The notes under the pieces: generated by a model | What the model was told of the DNA's origin: nothing | The model's database searches: none | Seen by the model: only the letters and a program-made list of their open reading frames with translations | Position numbers and translations under genes: made by a program | NCBI GenBank assembly: GCA_012798955.1 | Contig: JAAZMF010000166.1 | Location: 1 to 48,564, forward strand | From: Bacillota bacterium | GTDB taxonomy: Bacteria > Bacillota > Limnochordia > DTU087 | DNA: 48,564 nucleotides | Reading direction: 5' to 3' | In this document: piece by piece, positions 12,237 through 39,162 of the stretch | Layout of the letters: every line of letters begins with the position of its first letter | Numbering within the stretch: the first letter of the stretch is position 1

Positions 12237-12264
12237 AGCAGCTAATAGACTAGATGACTCTTAC

Positions 12265-12567
12265 TAAGGCTATGAAGGGGAAAAGTAGCCCCGCCAGCAC
12301 GTTACAGAGAGCCGGGTTAGGTGCAAGCCGGCACGGAAAGCGAAGGCAAAGTTCTCCCTGGAGCCGTGTTGCTGAACATTGAAGTAGGCAATACCGGAGA
12401 CTTCCACCGTTACAAGGAAGCAGGCCTCGACTGTCTTCGATTTCCTTTGGAGGGAATAGTGAGATAAAGGTGTCTGAACAAGTGGTGTGATTCTCAAAGG
12501 ATCACACAAAAAGGGTGGTACCGCGAGTAACCCCTCGTCCCTTAATTGTGGATGAGGGGTTTGTTGA
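12265..12567 (+). ncRNA. T-box leader, specifier TTC (Phe) at 12352-12354
   Basis: AAGTAG loop, AGAGAGCCGGG, GGTGCAAGCCGG apical loop, GTTCTCCCTGGAG specifier region, T-box sequence AAGGGTGGTACCGCG (12511-12525), terminator CCCCTCGTCC/GGATGAGGGG. Confidence 0.93.
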
Positions 12568-12588
12568 TCTATGAGGGAGGTCAGATTG

Positions 12589-13635
12589 ATGATTATCGTT
12601 ATGGATAAGGGCGCGACTAAAGGGCAGCTGGAAGAGATATTGACCCGTATTGAGGGGTATGGCTTGGAGCCCCATGTGATCGTGGGGGTAGCTAGGACAG
12701 TGATCGGTATAGTAGGAGATAAGAATGGACTAGAGCCTGATGCCTTTGCTGGACTCCCCGGGGTGGATAAGGCAGTCCCCATCATGGCCCCCTACAAACT
12801 TGCCAGTCGTGATGCAAAGCACGAAGATACCGTAGTTCAGGTGGGCAATGTGGCCATTGGCGGAGAAGAGCTGGTGTTTATAGCTGGTCCTTGCGCCATT
12901 GAAAGTCAGGATCAGATTTTAGAAACAGCCCATGCCATAAAAGCTGCTGGTGCCACAATGCTTAGGGGAGGAGCCTTTAAGCCCCGCACATCTCCCTATA
13001 GCTTCCAGGGACTAGGAGAGCTAGGCCTTAGACTACTGGCGGAAGCTGGTAGGGCCACCGATTTACCAGTTATTTCCGAAGTAATTGAGCCCGGTGATGT
13101 AGAGCTTGTTGCCCAATACGTGGATGTGTTGCAGATTGGTGCCCGCAACATGCAGAACTTTTCGCTCCTGCGGAAAGTTGGGCAAATGCAGGTACCAGTG
13201 TTACTCAAGCGAGGCTTGGCGGCCACCATTGAGGAGTGGTTAATGGCCGCAGAGTATATCATGTCTGAGGGCAATTACCAGGTTATTCTTTGCGAGAGGG
13301 GTATACGGACCTATGAGACCGCTACCCGCAATACTCTAGATGTAGCGGCCATTGCTCTAGCAAGAAGACTTAGTCATTTGCCAGTAATAGCAGATCCTAG
13401 CCATGCCACCGGTCAAGTCGATTTGGTGGCGCCGGCTGGTTGCGCCGCCATAGCCGCGGGTGCCCAAGGCCTAATGGTGGAGGTTCATCCTGATCCAAAT
13501 AGTGCCCTTTCCGATGGCCCCCAATCCTTGACACCACTTGAGTTTACAAAGATGGTACATCAGGTGCATCGAGTAGCCAACGCGGTAAAGCAAAACATAT
13601 CGGAGTATGGGCATCATGAAAGACAGGTTGTTTGA
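12589..13635 (+). CDS. aroF: 3-deoxy-7-phosphoheptulonate (DAHP) synthase, N-terminal ferredoxin-like domain type
   Basis: MIIVMDKGATKGQLEEIL N-domain; FIAGPCAIES, RGGAFKPRTSPYSFQG, ADPSHATGQ motifs. Confidence 0.94.
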   Translation: MIIVMDKGATKGQLEEILTRIEGYGLEPHVIVGVARTVIGIVGDKNGLEPDAFAGLPGVDKAVPIMAPYKLASRDAKHEDTVVQVGNVAIGGEELVFIAGPCAIESQDQILETAHAIKAAGATMLRGGAFKPRTSPYSFQGLGELGLRLLAEAGRATDLPVISEVIEPGDVELVAQYVDVLQIGARNMQNFSLLRKVGQMQVPVLLKRGLAATIEEWLMAAEYIMSEGNYQVILCERGIRTYETATRNTLDVAAIALARRLSHLPVIADPSHATGQVDLVAPAGCAAIAAGAQGLMVEVHPDPNSALSDGPQSLTPLEFTKMVHQVHRVANAVKQNISEYGHHERQVV

Positions 13636-30860: not shown

Positions 30861-31733
30861 ATGCAGGGAAACATGGGATCTACAGATCAAGCAAGTAACC
30901 ATTATGTAACTAGTCCCCAGAGGCCTAAGTTGGGGCTCGCGCTTGGCGGAGGAGCTGCGCGGGGGATTGCTCATATAGGTATACTGCAAGTACTTTGGGA
31001 AAATGGCATTGGCATAGATGCGATTGCGGGAACTAGTGCTGGGGCAATGGTAGGTGCGCTAGTTGCTGCGGGCATTAACCCCAGTAAAGTGGCTGAGATT
31101 GCCAGGGCGAGCAATTATTGGTTCTTGGCCAAAGATATTTCACTACGCAAGGCCGGTATTTTGCAGTCAACAGGTATCGAAAAATGGATGCGGCGCCATA
31201 TTAAAGACAAATCCTTTGCCGAACTGGAGATACCTCTGGCGGTGGTGACAACGAACATCCTAGATGGGGGGACTGTGGTCTTCACTGAGGGCGATGTGGC
31301 TTGGGCCGCGCGGGTAAGTGCCACAGTACCCGGCATATACGCACCTGTAGAGTATGGCGATGACTTGCTTGTCGATGGGGGCCTTACCCAAAATGTACCG
31401 GTAGAGGCGCTACTAAGTATGGGAGTGGACATAACCCTTGCAGTTAGTCTAAATGAATCGTTCTGGCATCGGGGTATGCCGGAGCATCCAGTCGAGACAA
31501 TTCAACAAGCCATTACTATCTTGCAGAGAGCCCATATCGGTAGGCAACTAAGCAAGGCTGACTTAGTCGTTGCCCCCGATTTACAAGAGCTAAGCCTGAC
31601 AGACTTTAAGGAAGTAGATGAGTTTCTAAGATTAGGTAGAGTGGCTATGGAAGCGGCCTTACCTAGGCTTAATGCTATACTAGACATGTGGGCAGAAAGG
31701 AAGGACACCTATGGGCAAATCGTCGGTAGCTAA
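30861..31733 (+). CDS. patatin-like phospholipase (RssA family)
   Basis: LGLALGGGAARGIAHIGIL oxyanion motif, GTSAGAMVGAL (GxSxG), VDGGL. Confidence 0.9.
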   Translation: MQGNMGSTDQASNHYVTSPQRPKLGLALGGGAARGIAHIGILQVLWENGIGIDAIAGTSAGAMVGALVAAGINPSKVAEIARASNYWFLAKDISLRKAGILQSTGIEKWMRRHIKDKSFAELEIPLAVVTTNILDGGTVVFTEGDVAWAARVSATVPGIYAPVEYGDDLLVDGGLTQNVPVEALLSMGVDITLAVSLNESFWHRGMPEHPVETIQQAITILQRAHIGRQLSKADLVVAPDLQELSLTDFKEVDEFLRLGRVAMEAALPRLNAILDMWAERKDTYGQIVGS

Positions 31734-32253
31734 AATTGATCCCCTAATAGGGGTTGTTCTGGGCAGTGATAGTGATTTGCCGGTATTGGCCCCCGGCCTT
31801 AAGATGCTAGAGGATTGGGCCATACCCTTTGAGGTGCATATCCTCTCAGCCCATCGCACACCTGAAGCTGCAGCTGACTACGGTAGGTCGGCTGAGGTAC
31901 GGGGCCTTCAAGTTCTGATTGCAGCTGCCGGTATGGCAGCCCATCTCCCCGGAGTGTTGGCCTCTTATACAACTCTTCCGGTGATTGGCCTACCAGTAGC
32001 TAGTGGCCATCTAGGAGGGAAGGATGCTTTGTACGCCATCGTACAGATGCCTCCAGGTATACCAGTGGCAACAGTAGGTATTAATGCCGGGAAAAACGCT
32101 ATATTGCTAGCGCTGGAGATTTTGGCCTTGGCTAACCCGCTTTACCAAGACAAACTCAAGGCGTTCCGCAAAGAACAGGCCCAGGGAGTCCTAGACAAGG
32201 ATGCCCACCTGCAAGAACGTGGCTTTCAAGGGTATGGTGTTGCGCGTACATAG
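31711..32253 (+). CDS. purE: 5-(carboxyamino)imidazole ribonucleotide mutase
   Basis: [34 protein letters not shown] motifs; overlaps the patatin gene by 23 nt. Confidence 0.95.
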
Positions 32254-32268
32254 ATCCCTTGATATAAT
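32240..32268 (+). promoter_or_regulatory. promoter TTGCGC-17-TATAAT for riboswitch/purL transcript
   Basis: -35 32240-32245, -10 TATAAT 32263-32268, overlapping the purE 3' end. Confidence 0.6.
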
Positions 32269-32310
32269 TGACTTACCACAACACAACTGCATACTCACCT
32301 TTGATGAAAG

Positions 32311-32458
32311 TGCACCTAGGGTTCCGTCGCCATGGGGCGAGTCTGGACCAAGTGGTGCAGGCACTGCGTTTTGCGGCAGTGTTACACCCTAGAAGGATAA
32401 AAGCCTGGGCGGGTAGGTTTCACATGAGATTAGTGTAAACCTGCCTGCCTTTTGTTTT
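32311..32458 (+). ncRNA. ykkC-family riboswitch (probable PRPP-sensing subtype 2b) with intrinsic terminator
   Basis: CTAGGGTTCCG ... GTCTGGACCAAG ... CCCTAGAAGGATAAAAGCCTGGGCGGG core; P1 CTAGGG/CCCTAG, hairpins TCGCC/GGCGA and CACTGC/GCAGTG; terminator GGCGGGTAGGTTT/AAACCTGCCTGCC-TTTTG (32409-32453); upstream of purL. Confidence 0.82.
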
Positions 32459-32503
32459 GGCTTGGTATATCAGGAGGAAAAGACTTAAGGAGGCTACAAC
32501 AAT

Positions 32504-34741
32504 ATGTCAGCTGGCAACAATGCCAAATGGGAAGATATGGGGATTAGTGCTACTGAATATGCCACAATCGTGGACATGCTTGGCCGAGAACCTAATGAGT
32601 TGGAGTTAGCTCTTTTTTCTGTGATGTGGTCAGAGCATTGTGGGTACAAGTATTCAAGAGCCCTTCTTTCGAAATTGCCCACTGAAGGTAGCCAAGTACT
32701 ACAGGGGCCGGGGGAAAATGCCGGCATCATCGATATCAAGGATGGTCAGGCCATTGTCATGAAAATCGAAAGCCATAACCACCCCTCCGCCATAGAACCA
32801 TATGCTGGAGCGGCCACAGGTGTGGGAGGTATCCTGCGGGACATTTTCACCATGGGGGCTAGGCCTATCGCTGGCCTAAATTCTCTGCGTTTTGGTGCTC
32901 TATCTGATCCCCATCAGCAAAGCCTACTAAAAGGGGCCATAAAGGGCATGGCAGGCTATGGGAACACCGTTGGAGTGCCCATGATTGCAGGGGAAATCTA
33001 TTTTGATGAATCATACAGTGGTAATTGCCTGGTGAATGCCATGGCCGTTGGTTTGCTGGAAAAAGACGATCCAATGGCCAAAGGTCTAGCTACAGGGGTA
33101 GGCAACACTGTAATGGCCGCGGGTACACCCACCGGGCGAGACGGTATCGAGGGTGCAGCTTTTGCATCGGTGGAGCTTACCGAAGCGTCACAGGAAAGGC
33201 GCTCTGCCATACCCCAGGGTTACCCTGAAACTGGCAAGCGGTTGATCGGGGCTTGCCTCGAGGCCATTGCATCGGGACACTTAGTTGGTATCCAGGACAT
33301 GGGTGCCGCTGGCCTTACGAGCTCGGCCAGTGAAATGGCGTATAGGGGAGAGCATGGGATTGAACTGGACATGGATCGTATTCCGGTTAGGGAAGAGAAC
33401 ATGACACCCTATGAGATAATGTTGTCAGAGACTCAAGAACGCATGCTATTTGTGGTTAAGGCCGGAGAAGAGGCTGCCATAGAGGCTATTTTCACCAAGT
33501 GGGATATCCCGGTGGCTACTGTTGGGAAAGTCACCGATGATGGCATGATGCGCCTCAAGAAAGGCGACACCACATTGGCAGAGGTGCCGGCTAAAGCCTT
33601 AGCCAGTGCCCCTATGTATCAGCCGGAAGCCCATCGCCCCGCCTATCTAGCCGACACAACTAGTTTTGATCTAAGTAGCCTACCACAACCAGAAGATCAC
33701 AATGCTATACTCTTGAGGTTGCTTGCCACGCCGAATATTGCCAGTAAGGAGTGGGCCTACCAGCAATTCGACTATTCGGCCCAGGGTAACACGTTGATAC
33801 CACCGGGTCAGACCGGCGCTGGGTTACTCAAGGTTCAGGGCACAGACAAGGCCATTGGTTTTAGTGTTGATTGTAACGCCCGATTCTGCTATCTCGATCC
33901 TAAGAGCGGTGCAGCAGCGGCAGTGGCTGAGGCAGCCCGCAACTTGGTCTGCAGTGGTGCTAAGCCACTAGCTGCTACAGACGGTTTAAATTTTGGTAAC
34001 CCAGAAAAGCCTGAGATTTATTGGCAGTTTTCCGAGACTATTGATGGAATAGCCGAGGCATGTAAAGTCCTAGATACACCCATCGTTGGTGGAAATGTAT
34101 CCTTCTATAATGAGAGTAAAGGCCAGGCCATCTATCCTACGCCCATTATTGGCATGCTAGGTTTGGTAAGTGATGCCGATAGTATTTGCACGCAAAGCTT
34201 CAAGCAAGCGGGGGATGCAATTGTGCTCCTTGGTATCAATAAGGGAGAATTAGGTGGTAGCGAATACCTTGCCACCATTTGTGGCCTAACTACCGGGCGA
34301 CCGCCGGAGATGGATCTTGATCTTGAAAAACGGGTACAGGATGCATGCCTAAGGGCCATCAAAGAGGGGTTAGTGCGCTCTGCCCATGATTGCAGTGAAG
34401 GCGGATTGGCAGTGACTTTAGCTGAGTGTTGCATTCTGGGACAGCTAGGCGCCTCCGTCACCTTAACAGACCATGTTCCACCGGCAGAGCTACTCTATGG
34501 AGAAAGCCATAGCCGTATAGTGTTGTCGGTTGCCCAGGAGAACCTAACTAAGCTAGAGAAGCTGGCTGAAGAGCAAGATGTGCCTATGGAGGTAATCGGG
34601 GAGGTACAATCGGGACATTTGGAGATACGGGCCTTGACGTGCAATGACGACAGGGCCAAGAAGCTCCTTGTGAATTTGCCAATACAGAAACTAGAAAGCA
34701 CGTGGCGGGAGGCTATTGCATGCCACATGAATCGGTCATGA
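32504..34741 (+). CDS. purL: phosphoribosylformylglycinamidine synthase subunit (small PurL type)
   Basis: ALFSVMWSEHCGYKYSR, IVMKIESHNHPSAIEPYAGAATGVGGILRDIFTMGARP motifs; 745 aa. Confidence 0.95.
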   Translation: MSAGNNAKWEDMGISATEYATIVDMLGREPNELELALFSVMWSEHCGYKYSRALLSKLPTEGSQVLQGPGENAGIIDIKDGQAIVMKIESHNHPSAIEPYAGAATGVGGILRDIFTMGARPIAGLNSLRFGALSDPHQQSLLKGAIKGMAGYGNTVGVPMIAGEIYFDESYSGNCLVNAMAVGLLEKDDPMAKGLATGVGNTVMAAGTPTGRDGIEGAAFASVELTEASQERRSAIPQGYPETGKRLIGACLEAIASGHLVGIQDMGAAGLTSSASEMAYRGEHGIELDMDRIPVREENMTPYEIMLSETQERMLFVVKAGEEAAIEAIFTKWDIPVATVGKVTDDGMMRLKKGDTTLAEVPAKALASAPMYQPEAHRPAYLADTTSFDLSSLPQPEDHNAILLRLLATPNIASKEWAYQQFDYSAQGNTLIPPGQTGAGLLKVQGTDKAIGFSVDCNARFCYLDPKSGAAAAVAEAARNLVCSGAKPLAATDGLNFGNPEKPEIYWQFSETIDGIAEACKVLDTPIVGGNVSFYNESKGQAIYPTPIIGMLGLVSDADSICTQSFKQAGDAIVLLGINKGELGGSEYLATICGLTTGRPPEMDLDLEKRVQDACLRAIKEGLVRSAHDCSEGGLAVTLAECCILGQLGASVTLTDHVPPAELLYGESHSRIVLSVAQENLTKLEKLAEEQDVPMEVIGEVQSGHLEIRALTCNDDRAKKLLVNLPIQKLESTWREAIACHMNRS

Positions 34742-36153
34742 CATCAGAGCTGGATTTCGGTAAGCCTCAGGAAGCCTGTGGTGTTGTAGGTATCTTCGGG
34801 GATAATCGCAGTACCAATGTCGCGTCACTGTGCTACCTTGGCCTCTATGCTTTGCAGCATCGGGGCCAGGAGAGCGCTGGCATGGTCACCTCCGATGGCA
34901 AGAATCTTTGGCTAGATAAAGGACCTGGCTTGGTTCCCGATGTGTTTAATCAAGAGCATATTGATCGATTGCCGGGCCATGCGGCCATAGGCCATGTGCG
35001 GCTAGCCACAGACAAGGACCGCCATGTAGTGAACACACAACCTTTAGTAGTTCGTTCTACCTTTGGTAGCTTGGCTATCGCCCAAAATGGTAGTCTCGTC
35101 AATGGAGGAGATTTAAAGAAGGGTTTACTTGATGCCGGTGCCGTGCTACAGACCGATACTGATTCAGAGATCGTATTAAATCTGATAGCTAAAAGCAAGC
35201 AGAAAGATTTGCCCGGGGCAGTAGCGGAGATCCTCAAGCTTTTGAAAGGAGCCTATGCCTTAGTGATCTTAAGTGAGAATATGCTACTGGCAGCACGGGA
35301 TCCTTTGGGTAATCGGCCTTTGAGCCTAGGTAGGCTAGATGAGGGCTATATTGTAGCATCCGAATCATGCGCTGTGGCTAATCTTGGTGGTGAATTGCTG
35401 AGGGAAGTGCAGCCTGGGGAGCTTCTGGTCCTCGATCAATCAGGCTATTATACCCACACCTTGCTACCGTCGGATAGAAAAGCATTGTGTGCCTTTGAGC
35501 ATATCTATTTTGCTAGGCCTGATAGTCGCTTAGGGGGCCAAAACGCCTACCTAGTTCGCAAAGCCATTGGTCGGGAATTGGCGTTGGAATCAGTAGTAGA
35601 AGCTGATGTGGTGATTGGTGCGCCGGACTCAGGAATCTCACCGGCCCTTGGTTTTGCTGAGGCAGCAGGCATCCCCTTTGAGACAGGTGTGATCAAGAAT
35701 CGCTATGTGGGACGGGCGTTTCTGCAACCAACCCAGGCAAGACGGGATCTTACTGTTCGCATCAAGCTAAATCCCATTGCCGAAGTACTCGATGGGAAGC
35801 GAGTGGCTGTGATCGATGACTCCATAGTGAGGGGGACGACTTCCGGTAAGCTTATTGGCCTGCTGAGAGAGGCTGGTGCTCGGGAAGTACACATGTATGT
35901 TGCCTCCCCACCATATCGGTACCCATGCTTCTATGGGATCGAGCCATCGTCTAAGAACGAGTTGGTTGCACGGGGGCGGACCGTAGAGGAGCTTCGCAGC
36001 TTCATCGGAGCCAATTCTCTGCAATATGTGTCACTGGAGGGGCTAGCTAGAGCCCTTGAGATACCTAAGGAGGAGCTTTGCTTGGCCTGTTTCACCGGCG
36101 ATTACCCTGTGTCTGCCACAGACGGGTGCAAAAAGGCCTCCAAGAGACTATGA
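34738..36153 (+). CDS. purF: amidophosphoribosyltransferase
   Basis: EACGVVGIFG N-terminal glutaminase, YALQHRGQESAGM, VAVIDDSIVRGTTS; ATG overlaps the purL TGA. Confidence 0.95.
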   Translation: MTSELDFGKPQEACGVVGIFGDNRSTNVASLCYLGLYALQHRGQESAGMVTSDGKNLWLDKGPGLVPDVFNQEHIDRLPGHAAIGHVRLATDKDRHVVNTQPLVVRSTFGSLAIAQNGSLVNGGDLKKGLLDAGAVLQTDTDSEIVLNLIAKSKQKDLPGAVAEILKLLKGAYALVILSENMLLAARDPLGNRPLSLGRLDEGYIVASESCAVANLGGELLREVQPGELLVLDQSGYYTHTLLPSDRKALCAFEHIYFARPDSRLGGQNAYLVRKAIGRELALESVVEADVVIGAPDSGISPALGFAEAAGIPFETGVIKNRYVGRAFLQPTQARRDLTVRIKLNPIAEVLDGKRVAVIDDSIVRGTTSGKLIGLLREAGAREVHMYVASPPYRYPCFYGIEPSSKNELVARGRTVEELRSFIGANSLQYVSLEGLARALEIPKEELCLACFTGDYPVSATDGCKKASKRL

Positions 36154-36200
36154 GCATGCCTTATTTGGCGAGGTTCCGATGGTGATTGTAGAAGAGTTTA

Positions 36201-37247
36201 ATGGGGGGAAGAGTGTTGTCTGAAAGTACGTATAGGGCGGCAGGTGTGGATATCCATGCCGGGTATGAGGTAGTTAAGCGGATTCGCAAACATACCGAAT
36301 CTACCTTTCGGCCAGAAGTGTTAGCGAATATCGGTAGCTTTGGATCTCTATTTGCCTTGGATACAACTAAGTATCAAGAGCCTGTCTTGGTGGCTGGAAC
36401 TGATGGCGTAGGGACTAAGCTGAAGATTGCATTCATGATGGACAAGCACGATACTATTGGTGTTGATGTAGTAGCCTATTGTGTCAATGATATCATCTGC
36501 CAAGGGGCCGAACCCTTGTTTTTCTTGGATTATCTTGCTGTTGGTAAGACGTATCCACAGAAAATTGAACAGATTGTGGCTGGTGTTGCCGAAGGCTGCC
36601 GTCAAGCGGGCTGCGCCTTGGTGGGTGGCGAAACCGCGGAAATGCCTGGTTTCTACCCAGAGGATGAATACGATTTAGCCGGCTTTACAGTGGGAGTAGT
36701 CGAGCGGTCTAAGGCTTTAACAGGGGCAGGGGCTAGGGCTGGGGACGTTGTCATCGGTCTAGCTTCTAGTGGCTTACAAAGCAGTGGGTTTTCCTTGGTT
36801 CGCAAGATATTTTTCCATGACCATAACTACAGCATAACACATCGATTTGATGACCTTGCTCGCACCCTTGGTGAGGAATTACTGGAACCAACCACAGTCT
36901 ATGTAAAACCTATTCTTGATCTGATTGCTGAGTATGACGTGGTGGGCGTAGCCAACATCAGTGGAGGAGGTCTTCCTGAGAACTTGCCTCGCTCCATGCC
37001 GGAAAATCTAGATGCTGTAATTCGCAAAGGTGCTTGGCCCATTCACCCCATTTTCGACATTTTGCAGAGGGTTGGCAATGTGGCTGAGGAGGAAATGTAT
37101 AATACCTTCAATATGGGTATTGGCATGGCTGTTATAGTAAGGCCCGAAGATGTAGATGCTGCCATGAAGAGGCTCTCTAAGCATGGAATCAATGCCTACG
37201 TTTTAGGTGAGCTCACCCTTGGTCAAGGGCAGGTGGTATTTGCCTAG
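36201..37247 (+). CDS. purM: phosphoribosylformylglycinamidine cyclo-ligase
   Basis: AAGVDIHAGYEVV, VAGTDGVGTKLKIA, VGGETAEMPGFY motifs; start may be GTG 36213. Confidence 0.95.
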   Translation: MGGRVLSESTYRAAGVDIHAGYEVVKRIRKHTESTFRPEVLANIGSFGSLFALDTTKYQEPVLVAGTDGVGTKLKIAFMMDKHDTIGVDVVAYCVNDIICQGAEPLFFLDYLAVGKTYPQKIEQIVAGVAEGCRQAGCALVGGETAEMPGFYPEDEYDLAGFTVGVVERSKALTGAGARAGDVVIGLASSGLQSSGFSLVRKIFFHDHNYSITHRFDDLARTLGEELLEPTTVYVKPILDLIAEYDVVGVANISGGGLPENLPRSMPENLDAVIRKGAWPIHPIFDILQRVGNVAEEEMYNTFNMGIGMAVIVRPEDVDAAMKRLSKHGINAYVLGELTLGQGQVVFA

Positions 37248-37294
37248 AGGCGGCTCTTGTTCTTAAAGGTGCATTATGCTAAGGAGGAAATGGT

Positions 37295-37897
37295 GTGAGT
37301 GTGGGGCGGTTAGCAGTACTCGTCTCAGGACGGGGATCGAACTTGCAGGCTTTAATCGATGCCATAGGGCAAGGCGATCTTGAAGCAGAAATAGTCACGG
37401 TAATCAGTGATCGGGGCGATGCATTAGGCCTCGTGAGGGCAGAAAAAGTCGGCATTCCCACAAGGGTATTTCCCTGGAGAGGCGATGCACACCGGGAAGA
37501 CTATTTTGAAGACATATCTGAAGCTGTATGTGAAGCCCAAGCTGATTTAATCATATTGGCGGGGTTTATGCGGGTGCTTTCACCAAACATAGTACAGAGA
37601 TTTCCCCATAGGATTATTAACATTCATCCTTCGCTACTGCCGGCTTTTCCGGGTCTCCGTGCCCAGCGTCAGGCATTGAAATATGGCGTGAAGTTCGCCG
37701 GTTGCACTGTCCATTTCGTAGATGAAGGAGTAGACTCAGGTCCGATACTAGTTCAAAAAGTCGTGCCCGTTTACCCCGATGATACGGAAAAAGCACTAGA
37801 GGAACGGATTTTGATCCAGGAGCATATCGCTCTGCCAGAGGCTATTCGGTTGGTCCTGGAGGGCAAATGGGAAATACAGGGGAGAAGGGTAGTATGA
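37295..37897 (+). CDS. purN: phosphoribosylglycinamide formyltransferase
   Basis: LAVLVSGRGSNLQALIDA, INIHPSLLPAFPG motifs; GTG start. Confidence 0.95.
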   Translation: MSVGRLAVLVSGRGSNLQALIDAIGQGDLEAEIVTVISDRGDALGLVRAEKVGIPTRVFPWRGDAHREDYFEDISEAVCEAQADLIILAGFMRVLSPNIVQRFPHRIINIHPSLLPAFPGLRAQRQALKYGVKFAGCTVHFVDEGVDSGPILVQKVVPVYPDDTEKALEERILIQEHIALPEAIRLVLEGKWEIQGRRVV

Positions 37898-39162
37898 AGG
37901 TCTTTGTGGTAGGTAGTGGTGGTAGAGAGCATGCTTTGGTCCAAAAGCTTTCTGAAAGTCCTGAAGTTGATTCTATCTGGTGTTATCCTGGCAATGCGGG
38001 CATTAGAGGTATTGCTCAAATACCAAGCTTGGTGGCGCCAGAACCCAGCATATTGGCAGATTTTGCCGAAGCACAAGGAATTGATTTGACGGTGGTGGGT
38101 CCAGAAAACTTCCTGGCCCAGGGTATTGTCGATGTCTTCCGAGGTCGGGGTCTAACGATTTTCGGTCCCACCAAGGCCGCGGCCCAGCTGGAAAGTAGCA
38201 AGATCTTTGCCAAAGCACTTATGGAAAAATACCAAATCCCAACTGCTAATCACTCAGTTTTCACCGATTACGCCAGTGCCAAGAGCTATATAGAAAGGGT
38301 CGGAGCTCCAATAGTTATTAAGGCAGATGGGCTGGCGGCTGGCAAAGGCGTAATAGTGGCCGAAACTGTAGAGGAAGCCCTTGAGGCGGCCAAGGCCACC
38401 TTATCTGGCCAGATGGTCGGTGAGGCCGGGCGACGTATTGTAGTTGAAGAGTTTTTGAAAGGCCAGGAAGTCTCCATATTGGCTCTATGCGATGGATCAG
38501 TCTGTGTTCCTCTTAGCCCTAGCCAAGATCACAAGACCATCGGTGAAGGTGATACAGGGCCTAATACAGGCGGTATGGGTGCTTATAGTCCTGTGCCCGC
38601 CGTAGATTCTGCTCTGGAAAAAGAAATCTATGACACTATACTTAGCCCCGTGCTGGCTGCTTTGCAGGCTGAGGGCATCAAATATACAGGGGTGCTTTAC
38701 GCGGGATTGATGTTGACAGAGTCGGGTCCTAAGGTCATCGAGTTTAACTGCCGTTTTGGTGATCCTGAAACCCAAGTCATTTTGCCCCGGCTAAAAAGTG
38801 ATCTATTTGAACTACTACTAGCCAGCTGCCAGGGTCGCTTGGCCTCTTTGACACCTATCGAATGGGATGCCCGGGCATGTGTTTGTGTCATCGCCGCTTC
38901 AAAAGGGTATCCAGGGGCATATCCAAGAGGCTTACCCATCAGGGGTTTAGAGAATCTTGGTAAGTGTAATGATATCCGCGTTTTCCACGCAGGAACAGCT
39001 CTTTCATCAGGACAAATAGTCACTGCAGGCGGTCGGGTGCTAGGCATATGTGGGCTTGGTAGGGACGTGGGCGAAGCTAGAGAACAGGCCTATACAGCGC
39101 TAGGCGAGATCGATTTTCAAGGGATATACTACCGTCGAGATATAGGTTGGCGGGCCCTTTAA
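37894..39162 (+). CDS. purD: phosphoribosylamine--glycine ligase
   Basis: MKVFVVGSGGREHALVQKL, VVVGPENFLAQGIVD-like, CRFGDPETQVILPRL motifs; ATGA overlap with purN. Confidence 0.95.
   Translation: MKVFVVGSGGREHALVQKLSESPEVDSIWCYPGNAGIRGIAQIPSLVAPEPSILADFAEAQGIDLTVVGPENFLAQGIVDVFRGRGLTIFGPTKAAAQLESSKIFAKALMEKYQIPTANHSVFTDYASAKSYIERVGAPIVIKADGLAAGKGVIVAETVEEALEAAKATLSGQMVGEAGRRIVVEEFLKGQEVSILALCDGSVCVPLSPSQDHKTIGEGDTGPNTGGMGAYSPVPAVDSALEKEIYDTILSPVLAALQAEGIKYTGVLYAGLMLTESGPKVIEFNCRFGDPETQVILPRLKSDLFELLLASCQGRLASLTPIEWDARACVCVIAASKGYPGAYPRGLPIRGLENLGKCNDIRVFHAGTALSSGQIVTAGGRVLGICGLGRDVGEAREQAYTALGEIDFQGIYYRRDIGWRAL

Follow-up and report, generated by a model that had tools for sequence, protein, structure and literature searches.

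A singlet ykkC subtype 2b element, very probably a PRPP riboswitch, between purE and purL in a Bacillota genome

Locus and Controlled Genes

The window, i.e., the whole 48,564-nucleotide stretch of Bacillota DNA analyzed here, carries a ykkC-class RNA element between purE and a run of purine genes. On the forward strand, the aptamer (32305-32423) and an overlapping intrinsic terminator (32407-32458) precede a Shine-Dalgarno sequence read from the sequence (TAAGGAGG, 32486-32493) and purL (32504-34741), the first controlled gene, which encodes a PurL of the small type (745 aa; NF002290, 962 bits). The remainder of the operon, comprising purF, purM, purN, and purD, occupies 34702-39162 on the same strand, and the genes that the initial annotation had placed under the switch, purL-F-M-N-D, are thus confirmed downstream. 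The order purE–riboswitch–purL is found in 11 of 11 sampled family genomes, including that of the window. On the 5′ side, a patatin-like protein gene and purE lie at 30861-32253; the patatin-like gene overlaps the start of purE and stands directly before it in 10 of the 11 family genomes. Elsewhere in the window, a T-box leader (131.9 bits, 12263-12545) precedes a DAHP synthase gene (12571-13635), and aromatic amino-acid synthesis is therefore probably controlled.

Covariance-Model Match and Extent of the Aptamer

In a cmscan of the 48.6-kb window, the Rfam model RF00442 (gathering score, 63) matched over its full length of 107 positions at 32305-32413 on the forward strand, within the aptamer at 32305-32423, with 69.9 bits (E = 1.8e-10), which is the outcome of the covariance-model search that the initial annotation had named as a check. 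RF00442 is the only Rfam model exceeding its gathering score at the element, and its match also ranks best in a permissive Rfam scan around the element, in which an L21_leader match (RF00559, E = 2.2) is weak and is regarded as chance. The element receives the Rfam label “Guanidine-I” because RF00442 lumps ykkC subtypes with several classes of ligand. It is the sole RF00442 match in the 2.59-Mb genome, and a second copy was likewise absent from the genome when searched with R1, a model built from the relatives (next best, 12.6 bits); neither model found extra copies, though purC and purH lie elsewhere. On R1, whose training set includes the window itself, the element scores 138.9 bits.

The limits of the whole aptamer (32305-32423) are drawn from RF00442, R1, and covariation over 65 sequences. 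It opens at 32305-32310 with the P0 5′ strand (U-G-A-A) and the contact residues A5 (32309) and G6 (32310), identical to the T. mathranii 5′ end TGAAAG. The P1 helix (32311-32316 with 32354-32359) encloses P1a and P1b, and its span (32311-32359) contains G48 (32352) and the discriminator base 49 (U32353). The P2 hairpin (32360-32383), defined by RF00442 and covariation, is followed by the P3 domain (32384-32409) with C75 (32385), A76 (32386), C77 (32387), C78 (32388), and the specificity base G96 (32408), which pairs with C75. Alignment with T. mathranii places the 3′ ligand-contact tail (G101 32413, A103 32415, G104 32416, and G105 32417) and the P0 3′ strand at 32413-32422. The ykkC core strings quoted in the initial annotation are all present at their places, and the P1/P1a/P1b, P2, and P3 scaffold is supported by RF00442 and covariation. 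Of the extent given there (32311-32458), the end holds, the terminator tail reaching 32458; the start has to be moved 6 nt upstream to 32305 because the omitted 32305-32310 is the P0 5′ strand with two ligand contacts.

Relatives, Covariation, and Singlet Arrangement

An exact pattern scan across the genomes of 84,980 species recovered 47 further loci, nine of which are duplicates of family members; where readable, the downstream genes are purL, purB-like, purC-like, purE, and NCS2-type permeases, as judged from similarity and inspection. In alignment A2 (65 sequences), which was fitted to the structure, 96.9% of cells are paired versus 81.9% in shuffles, a value reached by none of 500 shuffles, and pairing falls to 31-44% when partners are slid by 1-3 columns. 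Both-side changes occur in 20 of 32 pairs in this alignment, among them 7 of 8 pairs in P2 and 2 of 4 in P0. Positions 1-8 and 10-22 are conserved by construction in loci L025-L071 because a constant 5′ pattern was used to retrieve them; as the pattern sets the P0 5′ strand in them, P0 is tested by the other loci only, and bases 49, 75-78, and 96-105 lie outside the pattern. G96 is present in all 65 sequences. Two PRPP-type aptamers lie within a few kb of each other on the same contig in three cases (L041, 1838/2827; L037, 2066/3052; L058, 5222/7558), with purine genes in part of these loci.

A decayed aptamer, of which only a plain attenuator remains, would be compatible with a terminator that is very stable in isolation, but it is scarcely credible given that the conserved residues are all retained in 11 of 11 family genomes while the stems vary by compensation.

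With respect to neighboring aptamers, no match to the purine riboswitch model RF00167 was obtained near the element, even at a permissive threshold, and no guanine aptamer (RF00167) was detected anywhere in the genome. The element had been described as solo, with no guanine aptamer in front, and both the nearby and the genome-wide search uphold this description. A tandem guanine–PRPP gate was rejected, a guanine aptamer not being found directly upstream. Among 257 published PRPP aptamers, 127 are tandem and hence 130 are non-tandem (PMC5912903); a singlet is therefore ordinary.

Ligand Specificity

Features separating the ykkC subtypes are available from previous work on the T. mathranii aptamer (PMC6031431): base 49 is A in guanidine-I and a pyrimidine in ppGpp and PRPP aptamers; extended 5′ and 3′ ends pair as P0; and base 96 is G in >97% of PRPP aptamers and non-G in ppGpp aptamers, the G96A change alone shifting specificity about 40,000-fold. 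At all positions separating subtypes 1, 2a, and 2b, the element is on the PRPP side: base 49 is a pyrimidine (U32353), base 96 is G (G32408), and P0 forms by UGAA/UUCA pairing, with ends agreeing with those of T. mathranii. The element also retains the PRPP contacts known from the T. mathranii crystal structure (A5, G6, G48, C77, C78, G96, A103, G104, G105, and pyrimidine 49); the differences at contacts are C49 to U, still a pyrimidine, and A101 to G, at a position described as a weakly conserved purine (PMC6031431).

A control set was assembled from RF00442 matches in 250 genomes across the phylum and 40 further regions, which were scored with R1 and read by position at A5-G6, the AGGU tail, base 49, and base 96; genes were assigned by reading the first downstream ORF, without curated annotation. 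The counts of P0 pairs in the control alignment (A4) are not discriminating because it is model-fitted, and guanidine-I rows show 2-3 chance pairs. The control loci form two groups on R1, one of 15 loci at 38-52 bits and one of 55 loci, including the window, at 66-139 bits. In the low group, base 49 is A in 12 and G in 3 loci, the AGGU tail is mostly absent, and 12 of the 15 lie directly before genes for small SMR-type exporters or membrane proteins, a guanidine context. The high group has pyrimidine 49 in 53 of 55 loci and A5-G6 in all 55. Within it, A96 is found in exactly three loci (L160, L161, and L169), all preceding ilvE-like aminotransferase genes; the ilvE-type context is a published ppGpp context, and these three are likely ppGpp riboswitches. 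Two further loci resembling subtype 2 (L151 and L155, the latter also with G49) carry C96 before ABC permease genes, and the remaining high-group loci, including the window, carry G96. Base 49 thus divided the exporter-linked loci from the others, and base 96 is informative, though the control contains few ppGpp types. The sorting by residues agreed with gene context.

The Rfam name itself would make the element a guanidine-I riboswitch, and RF00442 is indeed the model that alone passes its gathering score here. The element, however, has U where guanidine-I aptamers have A (G in three low-scoring control loci), possesses P0 and the conserved AGGUUUC tail, and is followed by none of the exporter, carboxylase, or urea-related genes; moreover, no guanidine-type locus exceeds 52 bits on R1, against 66-139 bits for loci of the 2a/2b type. 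This identification is almost certainly wrong, and the bare label “Guanidine-I” names the wrong ligand for subtype 2b, for the re-sorting of which bases 49 and 96 together with the P0 tails suffice.

The ppGpp riboswitch (2a), which would activate the purine genes in the stringent response, is closer, since 2a and 2b aptamers are nearly alike and G96A alone interconverts them (PMC6031431); R1 does not separate the two, and the distinction depends on base 96 and gene context. Against a ppGpp ligand stand G96 in the window and throughout A2, the restriction of A96 in the control to the three ilvE-like loci, purine genes as a context foreign to ppGpp, and the 46-fold weaker binding of ppGpp than of PRPP by a G96 aptamer (PMC6031431), all of which render it very unlikely. 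Membership in subtype 2c (nucleoside diphosphate) or 2d, or a change of ligand in an aptamer of purine genes, is extremely unlikely: 2c and 2d are set apart from the element by gene context only, 2c accompanying NUDIX/HAD hydrolases and 2d EamA/TauE transporters (PMC7266159), whereas purine genes follow in the window and its relatives.

The element is thus very probably a singlet ykkC subtype 2b riboswitch sensing PRPP, the ligand-bound fold of which would permit transcription of purL-F-M-N-D. The initial annotation had called it probably PRPP-sensing, a reading now supported by bases 49 and 96, P0, the purine genes, and a transcriptional platform of the predicted ON type. We infer PRPP as most likely the ligand of an element whose class, covarying structure, diagnostic residues, overlapping folds, genes, and conservation are observed, and which represents a well-supported PRPP switch, at the same spot in every sampled member, in a family of Bacillota represented here by metagenome assemblies.

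Promoter, Terminator, and Switching

A probable sigma-A promoter (32240-32268, forward strand), recognized from sequence and recurrence, overlaps the 3′ end of purE and consists of a weak -35 element, TTGCGC (32240-32245), a 17-nt spacer, and the -10 element TATAAT (32263-32268). The TATAAT promoter previously noted in front of the element is thereby located, and 6 of the 11 family genomes show TATAAT with a TTGCAC or TTGCGC -35 element at 17 nt, placed 41-50 nt upstream of the aptamer; a stricter consensus promoter scan did not list 32240-32268. Use of this promoter is probable, and from the recurrence, purLFMND is therefore probably a separate transcription unit downstream of purE.

The terminator comprises a stem-loop at 32407-32450, predicted by folding (-26.6 kcal/mol; z = -5.0), and a U-rich tail read from the sequence (UUUUGUUUU, 32450-32458), both on the forward strand. 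A simple terminator scan did not list 32407-32458, presumably because a bulge interrupts the stem and a G interrupts the tail; a comparable stem overlapping the aptamer 3′ end is predicted in 11 of 11 family genomes. The 5′ arm (32407-32420) coincides with aptamer bases 95-108 and so takes in G96 through G105 as well as some of the P0 3′ strand. Sequence and energy agree with the earlier proposal that this overlap makes the two folds mutually exclusive.

PRPP switches are ON switches in which P3 serves as antiterminator, and the Heliobacterium modesticaldum purB PRPP switch gives ligand-dependent read-through in vitro and in B. subtilis (PMC5912903). Since the terminator recruits the 3′ sides of both P3 and P0, the genes are expected to be turned ON by ligand binding. 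At high PRPP, the nascent RNA would fold as P0-P1-P2-P3 around the ligand and hold these 3′ sides (32407-32422) away from the terminator, such that purL-F-M-N-D would be transcribed; at low PRPP, 32407-32450 would pair as the long terminator stem, RNA polymerase would halt on reaching the U-rich tail, leaving the operon off. Compared with the free fold, the forced aptamer fold costs approximately 9 kcal/mol at the point where transcription of the aptamer has just finished, and 26 kcal/mol after completion of the terminator (-45.9 vs. -71.9 kcal/mol). Since the completed terminator is clearly favored on energies alone, the switch would have to act kinetically, as is usual among such switches; read-through would result when the ligand holds P0 and P3 in the interval before the terminator is completed.

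Possible Purine Amidation Without PurQ and PurS

The genome, which encodes the small PurL (745 aa), yielded no detectable PurS or PurQ, and every sampled family member likewise has a small PurL with neither of them detected. Only two proteins with a class-I glutaminase were found in the genome, a CTP-synthase-like protein and GMP synthetase (L082, 352-1752, reverse strand), and the glutaminase half of the latter lacks the GICYGxQ nucleophile motif with the catalytic cysteine. The motif is missing from GMP synthetase in all nine family genomes with a readable N-terminal part (L112-L120) and is present in some class members possessing PurQ (G015 and G019). PurF retains its N-terminal cysteine (C26, ACGVVGIFGD). 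These sequences suggest ammonia-fed amidation at two purine steps, FGAM synthase and GMP synthetase, and a diverged glutaminase escaping the models used here is possible. With a PurL free of PurQ/PurS and a GMP synthetase with a degenerate glutaminase, both steps would therefore use free ammonia. That the switch controls such an unusual purine pathway is a tentative proposal, somewhat more doubtful than probable; if true, a PRPP switch gates a pathway whose nitrogen at the FGAM and GMP synthetase steps is not derived from glutamine.

Comparison With Known Systems

The closest structural reference is the T. mathranii PRPP aptamer, the crystal structure of which is available (Knappenberger et al., 2018; PMC6031431) and the ends of which, TGAAAGTGTACC (5′) and GCCCGGGAGGATAGGTTTCAC (3′), are given by the primers printed in that report. 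The corresponding ends in the window, TGAAAGTGCACC (5′) and GCCTGGGCGGGTAGGTTTCAC (3′), align with them without gaps, and the 3′ 21 bases show three differences. The P0 helix, G48, G96, and A103-G105 are common to both, whereas the element has U for C at 49, C for A at 98, and G for A at 101. With the H. modesticaldum purB singlet (Sherlock et al., 2018; PMC5912903), the element shares the aptamer class, the singlet arrangement, a terminator competing with P3, a downstream purine gene, and the predicted ON direction, although it belongs to another lineage and, flanked by purE and purL, probably has a promoter of its own. It resembles only the PRPP half of the tandem guanine–PRPP riboswitch (IMPLY gate), the upstream guanine aptamer being absent. 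The guanidine-I riboswitch (RF00442, ykkC subtype 1) has the P1-P2-P3 scaffold and most core bases in common with the element, which passes the Rfam threshold, but the element differs in pyrimidine 49, P0 with the 3′ tail, and the purine genes; the ppGpp riboswitch (2a) shares P0, pyrimidine 49, and the tail, whereas the element keeps G96 and its genes are not amino-acid genes. Because singlet PRPP switches at purine genes have already been published, the element is an addition to a known class, i.e., a new example of a PRPP switch in its usual setting.
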